Shown: in pieces, positions 18,257-23,072 of the stretch | How positions within the stretch are numbered: the stretch's first letter is position 1 | Layout of the letters: every line of letters begins with the position of its first letter | Source of the DNA: Bacteroidota bacterium | GTDB lineage: Bacteria; Bacteroidota; Bacteroidia; UKL13-3 | Assembly (NCBI GenBank): GCA_947457395.1 | Contig: CANGVA010000011.1 | Span: 28,048 to 92,047, forward strand | Direction of reading: 5' to 3' | Length of the DNA stretch: 64,000 nucleotides | The notes under the pieces: generated by a model | What the model was told of the DNA's origin: nothing | Seen by the model: only the letters and a program-made list of their open reading frames with translations | Database searches by the model: none | Translations under genes and position numbers: made by a program

Positions 18257-18327
18257 ATGTTCCAATTTCTATACAATGCAAGGGTTTTCTGTGCATTGCT
18301 TTACGCTGATATCAACTATCATTGCAT

Positions 18328-18654
18328 ATGCTTCAGTTAAAAAAATGGCTGGTAAACAAATATATTCTTGCCATGGCTTTGTTCATTGCCATGCTTTTCT
18401 TTTCTGATAAGAACAGCGTAATGGATCAGGTTAAATTGTACAGCCAATATAATAAGGTGAAGGCTGAACATATATACTATACCTCAGAAATTGATAGGGC
18501 AAAAACTGCCTATAATGAGCTATTTTCAAATGATAAAAACCTTGAAAAGTTTGCGCGTGAAAAATACCTGATGAAACGTGATGATGAAGATGTATACGTA
18601 ATTATTGAAGATAAAAAGCCGATTGCTGACGAACAGCAGCAACCGGCTGAATAA
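18328..18654 (+). CDS. ftsB: Septum formation initiator, FtsB/DivIC family
   Basis: The 108-residue protein has the FtsB/DivIC layout: a short cytoplasmic N-terminus, one membrane span (about residues 12-28), a coiled coil (about 35-70) and the conserved C-terminal motif LEKFAREKYLMKRDDEDVYVI, split here around the invariant A-R-E-K. Members bridge FtsL and FtsQ in the divisome. The ATG at 18328 is preferred to an in-frame TTG two codons upstream. It converges on the condensin-like cluster with a gap of only 12 nt and has no evident terminator. The symbol follows the family; FtsB and DivIC cannot be separated by sequence here. Confidence 0.85.
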   Translation: MLQLKKWLVNKYILAMALFIAMLFFSDKNSVMDQVKLYSQYNKVKAEHIYYTSEIDRAKTAYNELFSNDKNLEKFAREKYLMKRDDEDVYVIIEDKKPIADEQQQPAE

Positions 18655-18666
18655 ACAATAAAGATT

Positions 18667-19206
18667 TTAAGCTTCTTCTTCTATCGAATTCTGCTGCAAT
18701 CTACCTTTGGCAAAGTTTTTAGCAAATTCCATAAACTCACGGTATGCGGGGGTAAAAGTAAATTTCTTATCACTGTTTCGGTCAATAATGTTTCTACGAT
18801 TCAGTGTGCCTAAAAACTGCTTTCTGTTATCACTATTTTTTAGTTGGTTGTTGTTTTGAATTAAGTCTGTATAAGACGAGTTGTCAAACAAATTATCGAT
18901 GATTTCAAGGTCAAATTCGGCATATTGGATTTCGTCAAGGAAGTTTTTCCCTTCTTTATCTAATTCATAGCATAACACACCCAGAAAAATGCAAATATCT
19001 CGGCTGAGTGTTTCCATTGTTTCTTCACTAATAATAAATGCATACTCGGTTTTTATCACCAAGTAGTAATCAAAACTTTCTTTAAAGAATTTGCCATAAA
19101 AATCTGCGTTGTTTTTTAGTTCAACAAATTTGGCATCTGTTGCCAGAACAAATTTGCCATCCAGCAAATCGCTCACAATATCTCGGTGGTATCTAGGATA
19201 GTCCAT
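18667..19206 (-). CDS. MukE/MksE-like condensin subunit
   Basis: The 179-residue protein begins with a short helix and the pattern IVSDLLDGKFVLATD, which matches the L-L-x-G-x-[FY]-[IV] opening of MukE, MksE and JetB. It continues with an F-Y-G-K-F-F block and a final winged-helix-like part (about 110-165). In the family, this subunit binds the kleisin and regulates the SMC ATPase. Its ATG overlaps the end of the kleisin-like gene by 14 nt, which implies translational coupling. It is the last gene of the trio and ends 12 nt from the convergent ftsB. Similarity is at the level of pattern and context, so I rate it as probable rather than certain. Confidence 0.65.
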   Translation of the reverse strand: MDYPRYHRDIVSDLLDGKFVLATDAKFVELKNNADFYGKFFKESFDYYLVIKTEYAFIISEETMETLSRDICIFLGVLCYELDKEGKNFLDEIQYAEFDLEIIDNLFDNSSYTDLIQNNNQLKNSDNRKQFLGTLNRRNIIDRNSDKKFTFTPAYREFMEFAKNFAKGRLQQNSIEEEA

Positions 19207-20389
19207 GTCTTTTTACTTTTATTTTAGGTACTCTTAAATTCATTTCTGTGGTTCTTATTACCTGCCTGTCAGTCTTTGTATCGAACTCCAGCTCGATATC
19301 ATCTTCAAATAGCAGGGTAGTTAAAGAGAAAAACTTTTCAGTTTCTACGGATTTGTACTCAGTGCGCAAGGTTTTTCCTGCCCATTCAAAGAAGTTAGGC
19401 TCAGGCAAGTCTTTCTTTAATTTATCTAAATAGAAATCTTTATTGAAAATCCATTTTTCACTCATGGCATCTTCACTCTCATTTAGATAAACCTCATTGC
19501 TCTGCAGGAACTGCTCCACATACTCCAGCGCATTATGATAAGGGTTATTGCTTTGCGGTGATTTACGGTACGTTTTGGTAATAAACGGTAATTCAGATTT
19601 ATCAGGATTTTTCAGAAACTCTATCCAGCCCGTTAAAATGAGTGATTCGCTGCGAATGCGCTCAATTAGCGGAAGCAATTCATTGGTCAGAATTTTTGAT
19701 TGCCTTAGCAGATCATCATTGGTTTGAACAAGGAACGTATACAGCTTTTCAAACTGTTGACGTGCCATTTCATCATCAAAGTTTAATCGCCTAATATTGA
19801 TGTATTGTGAAATATCCAGTAATCGGTTAGTTATCGATTGAGAATGGCTAACATCCAGAATGGTGTTCAATGGTTTGATATAGTAATCAATCCAAAAACT
19901 TGCTTTACGCACCTTCTCGCGATAGTCAATCTTGTCAACGTTGGATTTAAGTTCCTTTGTTTCACTAATAAGCCTAATGGTGTTTTTCTCAACGGCATCC
20001 GTAAAATCGCGTACCTCATTGTTTAAATCAGTGATGCGCTGCAACAATATATTGCGATCTTTGCTAATACCTTCTTTTATCTTCTTAAACAGCGCGGTTA
20101 TTGAGTGCTCATACTTCTCAATGGTTTCGGGTAATAGTGGCTTAAATTCACTAAGTATAAATTCTAGGAACTTAAAATACACCGGACGAATTTCATAATC
20201 ATCCGAAATCTTTTTTAGGAATTTGTATTCAATTAATTTATTTTCAATATCACTCTCATAGTGGGTCAGAATTTGTTTGAGCTCCTCTGTTTTAATAAGC
20301 CCATCCTTCATCTGTATATCAAATAAATCTTTAACTACATCAAAGTAGTTCGACAGGAAGTTTATTATGGTTCTTGGTTCCGTTCTCAT
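19193..20389 (-). CDS. MukF/MksF-like kleisin subunit
   Basis: The 398-residue product is almost entirely helical. Residues 1-85 look like a winged helix (TIINFLSNYFDVVKDLFD, then FLKKISDDYEIRP), about 85-170 is a coiled-coil stretch, about 170-270 a helical middle region, and the last 60 residues return to beta and basic segments ending VPKIKVKRHG. This is the domain order of MukF-type kleisins: N-terminal winged helix, helical middle, C-terminal winged helix. The length is near that of MukF (about 440). Alone it would be a hypothetical protein; the call rests on its place between an SMC-like ATPase (22 nt upstream) and a MukE-like gene (14-nt overlap). Confidence 0.6.
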   Translation of the reverse strand: MRTEPRTIINFLSNYFDVVKDLFDIQMKDGLIKTEELKQILTHYESDIENKLIEYKFLKKISDDYEIRPVYFKFLEFILSEFKPLLPETIEKYEHSITALFKKIKEGISKDRNILLQRITDLNNEVRDFTDAVEKNTIRLISETKELKSNVDKIDYREKVRKASFWIDYYIKPLNTILDVSHSQSITNRLLDISQYINIRRLNFDDEMARQQFEKLYTFLVQTNDDLLRQSKILTNELLPLIERIRSESLILTGWIEFLKNPDKSELPFITKTYRKSPQSNNPYHNALEYVEQFLQSNEVYLNESEDAMSEKWIFNKDFYLDKLKKDLPEPNFFEWAGKTLRTEYKSVETEKFFSLTTLLFEDDIELEFDTKTDRQVIRTTEMNLRVPKIKVKRHGLS

Positions 20390-20411
20390 ATTTTATTCTG
20401 CTTAAGGATGT

Positions 20412-23072
20412 TTAAACTTCTAGCTTTAAATTTTTATCAAGAACTTCCCCATAGGCTGCATTTGTTTTCTCATTGATATTAATTTTTCCTGAACTGCGGA
20501 AGATGAAGTAGTACTTGCCAAAGCCCGGTACTGCATCCGGTGCAGCAAAAATCGGAATAAAGAAGTGGTCTTTACAGAAACGCACCAGTTCAGGTCTGTT
20601 TTGCTTATCAATGGTTGCCACCTCATCAATAAATAATGCTATCCTGTTTTCATGATCAGCCAGTGCCAGCCTGTTAATGATGTTCATTACAATCACCAAA
20701 CGAATCATCTTATCGGTTCCGTCACTTTCAATCTGCTGGCTCAAATCAACCTGCTTAGTACTTCCTTTACGCGATAAATGCAGTGTGATGTCAAATAAAT
20801 CATCAAATTCTATTTGTGTTCCACTTTCAAGGTAGTGATCAAGTACCTTCAAGCTATCACTGTTATCAAATTCAAACATGAGTTGCCCTGTTACCTGCTG
20901 TATCTGGCTTATTTTCTTTACTTCATCAACCAGTCGCTTATTGTCTATCAATTCTATGGTAAGGGCCTCTATATCCGAAATTCTGGTTTGGGTTAGTTTG
21001 CTGTTAAATTTATTATAAATAAATTCTTTAAACTCCTCATAACGCTTCAGTAATGTATAAGCAGGATTAGCGAATTGAGTAGAGATACTTTCAAGTAACG
21101 ACTGGATACTTCTTTCTTTATCTTCAATCAGCGCTACTTCTTCTTCTACATACTTAATAAAATCATTCTCATCTGCAAAGGTGCTTTGTAGTTTATCGCG
21201 CAGTTTTTCAAATAAGTGATCCTTGTTAGATTTTAAAGTAATGCGGTCCTGCCAGTTTAGCTTTACTTTATTATATAATTGATCCAGGCTTTCGTTGGTT
21301 TCAAATTCTTCGCCTGCCAGCCCCAGTTCATCAATTTCATGCTTCATCTCAATAAGCCTATTGATGCGTTCCTGACGTTTTTGTTTTTCATCCAAAAAAT
21401 CGCGTAGCTCATTGCTTTTGCGCGCAATGGTTTTAGCAATTTGTTTCTGTTCGGCTTCAAATTTCTCTTTATCGGCCATCAGTTCATTAATCTCAGCTTT
21501 ATGCTTTTCCAGCGATTTAACAAGCGTAGGTTTAAGTTTTATGCGGGCCAGTTTGTGTTTAATTACTTCAATTTGTTCCTCTATCTTGCCTAATTGCTCT
21601 TGCGAGGCCTCCAGATCTTTCACCACTTTTAGCAATGCTTCCTGCTGCACCTTTTCTTCCTTCAGGGCCGCTAGTTCCTCTTTCAGCTGATCAACATTTT
21701 TAAAATCTTTTATTTCAATATTTTTTGAAATATCTATCTGACCATCAAAAATGTTTAGTGTCTGACTTATTTTATGTATTTGTTTTAATACCTGATCTCC
21801 CGGAAGGCTGCTTACCTGATCGCTGAGTATGGAATTAAGTAGTTTGCGGTTCTCAACTGATCCTGAAATTTTATTGATGAGCAGGTTGCTGTAATTTTTT
21901 ACCTGCATGTTCACGCGTGTCATCTGTTCATCAATACGCACAATCTTATTTTCAATTTGCTGGCTATTTAGCTTTTGCATTTCGGCAATGGTAATGCGGC
22001 TTTCAATAGTTTTGCGCTCTTTATCAAGATTGGCTAATTGCTCATTCAGTATTTTAACCGGTTCATAGGCATCAATAATTTTAATCTCATTTTCTTTTTC
22101 ATGAAGCAGCTGCGTGCGTGCGTTGATCTCGGCCTCCTTACCACCAATTTTTCTGTCTAAATCTGCTTTTTGCGGAATCAGCTCTTCATTCATTTCTGTA
22201 TTCAGGCGCCCAATGGCTTTGTCTTTTTCATGAAGCTGTACCTGCAGCTCAGGCATGGTGTGTGCGTAATTTTTATTAAAGCCAAAATACAGCTCACTTA
22301 AGATGTGAGATTTGGCATTGTATTGACTAACCAGCTCCCTGAATTCATCAAACTCATTCTTAACGGATTTGAGGTTTCTAATTTCGTTATTAATGCGCTT
22401 CAGGTCATTGATATCTTTCTTGTTTTTCTGCGAAAAGTTTAAGGTTTCATTTTCTCTGTTATCTGCTACAATCAGCGCTTCTTTCAGGTTTTTATTGGTG
22501 ATAAGTTTGGTGTTGATGAGGTAGCGATAAATACGTGAGAAATTGTTGCTGATGCCTTCGCTGCGAACACTGTCATCCAACCAAACCACCGCATTGTTGC
22601 GTTTGCCACGTTGATATACAAATTGAAATACATCACGCTTGTCTTTAAACTGCTCAAGCTTAAGATCTGCTGCGGCCAAACGCTCTTTTACTTCCTCAAA
22701 CTTAAGCAGGCGCTTGTCCTCATCAACAAAGTAATCTTCTTTATACTCACTATCAAATTTGTAGTATTCCAGGTTGCTCTCACTATCACGCTTAACAATA
22801 ATGGAGTAATAAGATTTTTTAAATACTTCAAATACAATAAAACTTTGGTTGTGATTGGGGAAGTAGTGGTGAATGGTTTCTTTATCGCCTTTGCGGTTAC
22901 CGCTAAAGCTCATTTTCTGACCATCAATAATGAATAAAAAGTTTAGTGCATAAATAAGGGTACTTTTTCCAATATTGTTAGGCCCAACCAGTTGTAAACT
23001 GTCACAATCATCTAATCTGATTTCAGCTTTTCCATACACTTTGGAATTCAGTACAATAACGCGTGTTAACAT
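20412..23072 (-). CDS. MukB/MksB-like SMC-family ATPase
   Basis: The 886-residue protein has an N-terminal ATPase half with Walker A GPNNIGKST at residues 30-38, then long coiled coils (about 225-420 and 470-640, very rich in Glu, Lys, Leu and Ile). The C-terminal half carries a divergent signature ESDGTDKM near 783 and Walker B RIALFIDEVATID at about 810-822. The following FFIPIFAAPDAVPGFGKYY resembles the I-I-A-A-P block after Walker B in MukB. MukB has about 1,490 residues and MksB about 900-1,000, so size points to MksB. SMC ATPases of this kind load on DNA with a kleisin and a MukE subunit, which follow it here. RecN- or RecF-like ATPases are the alternative but lack such partners. Confidence 0.75.
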   Translation of the reverse strand: MLTRVIVLNSKVYGKAEIRLDDCDSLQLVGPNNIGKSTLIYALNFLFIIDGQKMSFSGNRKGDKETIHHYFPNHNQSFIVFEVFKKSYYSIIVKRDSESNLEYYKFDSEYKEDYFVDEDKRLLKFEEVKERLAAADLKLEQFKDKRDVFQFVYQRGKRNNAVVWLDDSVRSEGISNNFSRIYRYLINTKLITNKNLKEALIVADNRENETLNFSQKNKKDINDLKRINNEIRNLKSVKNEFDEFRELVSQYNAKSHILSELYFGFNKNYAHTMPELQVQLHEKDKAIGRLNTEMNEELIPQKADLDRKIGGKEAEINARTQLLHEKENEIKIIDAYEPVKILNEQLANLDKERKTIESRITIAEMQKLNSQQIENKIVRIDEQMTRVNMQVKNYSNLLINKISGSVENRKLLNSILSDQVSSLPGDQVLKQIHKISQTLNIFDGQIDISKNIEIKDFKNVDQLKEELAALKEEKVQQEALLKVVKDLEASQEQLGKIEEQIEVIKHKLARIKLKPTLVKSLEKHKAEINELMADKEKFEAEQKQIAKTIARKSNELRDFLDEKQKRQERINRLIEMKHEIDELGLAGEEFETNESLDQLYNKVKLNWQDRITLKSNKDHLFEKLRDKLQSTFADENDFIKYVEEEVALIEDKERSIQSLLESISTQFANPAYTLLKRYEEFKEFIYNKFNSKLTQTRISDIEALTIELIDNKRLVDEVKKISQIQQVTGQLMFEFDNSDSLKVLDHYLESGTQIEFDDLFDITLHLSRKGSTKQVDLSQQIESDGTDKMIRLVIVMNIINRLALADHENRIALFIDEVATIDKQNRPELVRFCKDHFFIPIFAAPDAVPGFGKYYFIFRSSGKININEKTNAAYGEVLDKNLKLEV

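Follow-up and report, generated by a model that had tools for sequence, protein, structure and literature searches.

The described complexes closest to the locus reported here are MukBEF of Enterobacteria, built from a structural maintenance of chromosomes (SMC) ATPase, the kleisin MukF and the KITE subunit MukE, and MksBEFG/Wadjet (JetABCD), which adds a nuclease, JetD. MukBEF has no nuclease and no Smc-ScpAB alongside it, and its genes stand in the order MukF-E-B. The relation of the chromosome condensins (MukBEF, MksBEF) to plasmid-killing Wadjet is unresolved, and a passage in PMC10586767 calls a defence-system past tempting to speculate about. Here we analyze three adjacent genes, encoding an SMC-type ATPase, a kleisin and MksE, in a 64,000-nucleotide stretch of a Bacteroidota genome (GTDB lineage Bacteria; Bacteroidota; Bacteroidia; UKL13-3; assembly GCA_947457395.1, contig CANGVA010000011.1, positions 28,048 to 92,047), hereafter the window. 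Our literature search, in the parts of the sources that were accessible, returned no description of this trio.

The explanation we favor, with moderate confidence, is that the trio is a compact MukBEF-type SMC complex organizing its own chromosome, and that its most likely ancestor is a Wadjet-like system of four genes from which the nuclease has been lost. Its prevalence in the order, vertical signal, constraint, genomic context and the missing ScpA argue for a housekeeping role, most likely chromosome organization. The preliminary description of this DNA had judged a chromosomal role likelier than plasmid defence, and this judgement is supported. By analogy with MukBEF and Wadjet, two ATPase subunits would pair, their heads bridged by a kleisin that would recruit two MksE subunits, and cycles of ATP would draw DNA into loops. 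With the nuclease alongside, as in the four-gene form, this motor would recognize a small circle and activate the enzyme; once the enzyme is gone, looping alone would be left.

Anatomy of the trio

The trio lies on the reverse strand at positions 18667-23072 of the window. The gene for the MukB/MksB/JetC-like ATPase (886 amino acids, 20412..23072) is followed after 22 nt by the kleisin gene (398 amino acids, 19193..20389), whose reading frame overlaps by 14 nt that of the KITE subunit MksE (179 amino acids, 18667..19206). The sizes of the three open reading frames, the gap, the overlap and the 12-nt distance to a neighboring DivIC/FtsB-like open reading frame, all given in the preliminary description, were reproduced. 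That description had also proposed checking the conservation of gene order; the order ATPase-kleisin-MksE, read from coordinates, was kept in loci of the order, and all three genes were present in 41 of 41 such loci in the synteny set. Since MksE also passes its Pfam cut-off, the association is not one of chance.

The ATPase carries a Walker A motif (GPNNIGKS, residues 30-37, 22962..22985), an ABC signature (SDGTDKM, residues 783-789, 20706..20726) and a Walker B motif ending in D816 and E817 (20622..20639), all on the reverse strand and all recognized previously. In an alignment of 38 ATPase sequences including that of the window, residues G30, G35, K36, S37, S783, G785, T786, D787, D816 and E817 were invariant. 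An AF2 model (pLDDT 73.9) predicted heads at residues 1-214 and 696-886 joined to coiled-coil arms at 215-359 and 488-695, and a Foldseek search with this model matched head and arms to MukB and JetC as the top hits. The middle region (residues 360-487, possibly a hinge) was predicted with low confidence and its hinge type was not discernible; hinge-less SMC variants are known, but the part of PMC12153180 describing them places them in Actinobacteria. Sequence profiles were less specific. The ATPase profile found mainly coiled-coil matches among solved structures, the PADLOC JetC profile scored 11.3 bits (E 0.017), short of what a JetC assignment in Wadjet would take, and in hhalign the ATPase and JetC of the order aligned nowhere but around Walker A. 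The best PADLOC match was AriA (4.8e-8); as this match was confined to residues 28-133, it was taken to reflect a shared ATPase fold and AriA was rejected as the identity of the protein.

MksE matched Pfam family PF21980 (E 5.8e-21, 76 bits against a cut-off of 27), as expected of a KITE subunit of the MukE/MksE family. For the kleisin no sequence match was found, and its assignment follows from its predicted fold, for which MukF ranked first. Sequence profiles of the kleisin, of MksE and of the nuclease described below had no matches among solved structures, PADLOC profiles had none for kleisin or MksE, and hhalign comparisons of these two proteins with JetA and JetB of the same order were not significant. 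The MksE family match, the MukF-like fold and the MukB/JetC-like fold are the MukBEF/MksBEF-type parts previously suspected, and the anatomy is thus predicted to be that of a MukBEF-like SMC complex. It differs from MukBEF in its B-F-E gene order, its Bacteroidota lineage, a kleisin profile matching no solved structure, and the length of its ATPase, as MukB chains in the PDB have 1467 residues. JetC is also longer (~1130 residues), as judged from four Wadjet loci found within the order.

A JetD-like gene between ATPase and kleisin

Ten relatives carry a fourth gene of ~264 codons in the place of the 22-nt gap that separates ATPase and kleisin in the window (20390..20411, reverse strand). Three of these loci are in genomes of the order (G299, G345 and G327) and seven in other genomes (Pontibacter vulgaris, Mesonia, Arenibacter, Nonlabens xiamenensis, Flavobacteriaceae 14752, Flavobacteriaceae UBA3078 and Cyclobacteriaceae ACE_BAC7, the latter being G186). 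The ATPase-kleisin junction could be read in all 52 carriers of the order; the slot gene was intact in three, a fossil in one and missing in 48, where the gap was at most 163 nt except in G331 (439 nt) and G332 (268 nt), in every case too short for the gene. Among 51 loci read in genomes outside the set of 64 from the order, whose order membership was not checked individually, 48 had a readable junction and seven of these the slot gene. The fossil, in G340, is an open piece of 55 residues on the same strand matching the C-terminus of the nuclease (30 bits, E 6e-9); it was the sole scorer in a nuclease-profile scan of 37 gaps, which covered a subset of the nuclease-less loci and one genome twice.

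The slot gene is a putative Toprim-type nuclease related to JetD. The JetD_C profile matched the G299 protein with 26.7 bits (cut-off 22) and that of G186 with 15.3 bits, below the cut-off. Of 21 members of the slot family, eight matched JetD_C and 11 matched DUF7281 at E 0.01. Residues E143, N144, D186, D188 and G191 were invariant. Aligned with Wadjet JetD, represented by four proteins from the order, the family profile gave E 5e-5 and an hhalign probability of 67%. Outside the order, nuclease identity tracked that of the ATPase (ATPase/nuclease 52/51, 48/48 and 47/51%), and inside the order the nuclease was 31-36% identical against 59-74% for the ATPase, a difference that fits relaxed constraint or separate acquisition. 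G345 has the slot gene and its close congener G346 does not.

Because the slot gene is present in relatives and one fossil remains, neither of which the preliminary description had noticed, the trio reads as a nuclease-less derivative; judged from these sequences, the putative nuclease gene has undergone one loss or more, and probably many. The trio shares with MksBEFG/Wadjet the MksE family, JetC among its fold matches and, in the four-gene relatives, the JetD-like gene. It is unlike them in that the nuclease gene is missing from the operon in the window and in 48 of the 52 carriers of the order, and the slot-gene operons run B-G-F-E where Wadjets of the same order run F-E-B-G. The preliminary description had noted no JetD or MksG within 10 kb and had suggested looking for jetD elsewhere; across the whole genome of the window no JetD_C match was found at E 0.001, which extends that observation.

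Other arrangements were also seen. Separate Wadjets with JetD occur in four genomes of the order (G358, G310, G301 and G320), each beside its own JetA, B and C and, unlike the trio, sporadically. Two further divergent Wadjet-like operons of the order (L107:2369-8486 and L108:2514-8827) are arranged kleisin-MksE-ATPase-Toprim; that of L108 has a DUF7281 protein, and that of L107 has weak Top6A/JetD_C similarity. In two nuclease-less loci, the space between ATPase and kleisin holds insertions, identified by eye as two secreted-type open reading frames (L198:12629-17205) and a reverse-strand open reading frame resembling a YgiD-type dioxygenase (L209:12644-13909).

Prevalence, constraint and the missing ScpA

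The order was sampled as one family of 64 genomes, 45 of them good (completeness of 90% or more, contamination of 5% or less). The ATPase was found in 52 of the 64, in 38 of the 45 good genomes and in 12 of 14 genera, and MksE likewise in 52 of 64; at least one of the two was present in 53, and of the 11 genomes with neither, seven were good. In genus g148, six genomes (G334-G339) lack ATPase, MksE and ScpA and four congeners retain the trio, so that a whole clade may have lost every recognized condensin; G335 and G336 hold weak SMC-like pieces with internal stops (below 39 bits). Across an even phylum sample of 296 genomes, a single-sequence ATPase search gave three matches, one at only 19.7 bits, and a 28-row ATPase profile gave seven, of which two (G000 and G186) were full-length.

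In a tree of 94 ATPases, built by a quick method and with 50 rows without genus label left uncounted, genus labels changed 11 times for 12 genera, which is the minimum (shuffled mean 30). Genus g150 was nested in g148, and g142 stood among the unlabelled rows with a branch length of 2.23, which may reflect either an artefact of the tree or an acquisition of its own. A record labelled Candidatus Competibacteraceae (Gammaproteobacteria; L227) has an ATPase grouping with Flavobacteriales records and is possibly mis-binned.

Selection was estimated by the Nei-Gojobori method on 16 pairs, with values used where dS was below 1. For the ATPase, seven pairs fell under this limit, none of them with the nuclease gene, and gave dN/dS of 0.015-0.037 (about 0.02); in nuclease-less pairs where their own dS was below 1, the ratio was 0-0.033 for the kleisin and 0-0.049 for MksE. 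Among four-gene pairs, three of four had ATPase dS below 1, with an ATPase dN/dS of 0.052-0.098 and a nuclease-gene dN/dS of 0.074-0.151. By these ratios the trio is under strong purifying selection even without the nuclease. Together with its prevalence, its genus-consistent tree and, in one genus, neighbors that include parAB and topA, this makes the trio look core to its order.

ScpA, a component of the usual chromosome organizer, was found in none of the 64 genomes of the order, as against 247 of the 296 in the phylum sample. For Smc (TIGR02168) all 64 had weak matches but none above the 567-bit cut-off, and the best (51 bits) lay inside a Wadjet JetC gene. The preliminary description had noted neither absence. 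The closed chromosome UKL13-3 (G357, CP012155.1, 3,236,529 bases), in part of PMC5248499 described as one circular chromosome with no plasmids, carries the trio but no ScpA, no JetD and no Smc above the cut-off. The trio shares its general architecture with Smc-ScpAB, but its partners are MukF/MksE-like, and its setting differs from that of Pseudomonas aeruginosa, where MksBEF works beside Smc according to a portion of PMC7485682. When 50 genomes of unstated completeness were tested for ScpA through their loci, two had it, both four-gene; it was absent from all 40 nuclease-less trio genomes with a readable junction and from the three with an unreadable one. Shared ancestry among these rows makes the result a pattern rather than a test.

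Two Bacteroidetes without a homologue of known condensins are reported in part of PMC10197239, with the suggestion of SMC complexes yet to be identified. The trio is a concrete candidate for such complexes in part of the class; it was not detected in the listed ScpA-less genomes of family f5. We also considered the trio as the condensin of all ScpA-less Bacteroidia and rejected this for the f5 genomes sampled, as the ATPase profile found full-length relatives only in the two genomes named above. Likewise, the single listed genomes of families f7 and f8 have no ScpA, MksE or ATPase relative, and those listed for f4 and f10 lack ScpA with one MksE match each. Most MksE-positive genomes of the phylum sample (32 of 42) belong to family f18 (genera g49 and g54) of another class, and 30 of these 32 also have ScpA.

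Competing explanations and gene neighborhood

A broader scenario is plausible, if somewhat short of probable: that in a Bacteroidota lineage the chromosome is managed by a plasmid-defence motor stripped of its nuclease, Smc-ScpAB having gone, a compact B-G-F-E Wadjet-like set having been fixed as core and the nuclease having been shed repeatedly, so that armed, fossil and disarmed forms coexist, even in one genus. The presence of these forms in one order makes the direction and consequences of nuclease loss testable. Several observations weigh against the explanation we favor. Loss of ScpA is wider than the trio, because other families of Bacteroidia also lack both (all 14 listed f5 genomes are without ScpA, MksE and this ATPase), and replacement of Smc-ScpAB by the trio is therefore not established. 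ScpA is also missing from five of seven four-gene genomes (five Flavobacteriaceae), and three carriers of the order lack it yet retain the nuclease gene. In seven of 45 good genomes of the order ATPase, MksE and ScpA are all missing, so the trio is not indispensable everywhere, and the locus has moved, since its neighbors differ between genera. As for the nuclease, two of the four slot genes scanned (G345 and G327) had no JetD_C match and one of the four was above the cut-off; the base of the nuclease tree is too weak to choose between inheritance and repeated gain, parsimony requires five changes of unspecified direction, and it is at the fossil locus alone that loss is supported over repeated gain.

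That the trio still serves plasmid defence, sensing small circular DNA for a nuclease encoded elsewhere or an unrecognized partner to cut, appears unlikely. The JetD-like gene in the same operon of four-gene relatives speaks for it, as does the MksE family common to Wadjet and MksBEFG, with MksE matches beside the JetD genes of the order. However, the genome of the window has no JetD_C, and of the five JetD_C genes in the 64 genomes four stand beside their own JetABC and the fifth is the G299 slot gene. Any fourth family found with the trio is confined to at most 11 of 41 loci of the order and 14 of 51 others, and a universal new fourth partner was looked for and not found. Most genomes of the order have the trio, and plasmid records gave one match to the window ATPase, partial and at 26% identity. 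In a tblastn search for signs of mobility, with the L235 ATPase as query, no phage record was returned. An accessory SMC complex for a special chromosomal task (e.g., terminus handling, repair or growth-phase nucleoid changes), working beside an undiscovered main condensin, is similarly doubtful. It would agree with the absence of the trio from some good genomes, with ScpA-less f5 Bacteroidia, in which these profiles detected no condensin and which must manage otherwise, and with the secondary-diagonal contact signal that part of PMC10197239 reports in a Bacteroides species without known condensins; yet ScpA, Smc, MksE and JetD profiles revealed no second SMC complex in the order except sporadic Wadjet-like loci. 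Very improbable is a DNA-repair ATPase of the Rad50/SbcC/RecN type with two unrelated neighbors, for the window ATPase has no CxxC zinc hook as in Rad50/SbcC (its only cysteines are C23 and C833), its partners are MksE and a protein of predicted MukF-like fold, and the three genes stay together in all order loci of the synteny set.

Downstream of MksE and convergent with the trio lies the DivIC/FtsB-like open reading frame (18322..18654, forward strand), which just missed its Pfam cut-off (28.2 against 28.9 bits) and ends 12 nt from the MksE stop. A link to cell division had been raised from this adjacency; by BLAST (E 1e-15), this gene adjoins the trio in just two cases of a single genus, the window and G344, and the link was dropped on that ground. 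Between these two genomes the ATPase, kleisin and MksE are 96, 91 and 91% identical and four shared neighbors 77-84%. No defence island was noticed in the flanks of 13 loci read by eye. In genus g141, aroC and topA lie downstream of the trio in all 11 loci, and a ParA-family gene, parB, dapB and lepB lie upstream in five, with three others differing and three ending too soon. The tRNA methylthiotransferase gene mtaB is upstream of the trio in 14 of 51 loci from other genomes and in G344, and at L157, the only fully read locus of g142, the trio stands near rpoA and ribosomal genes.
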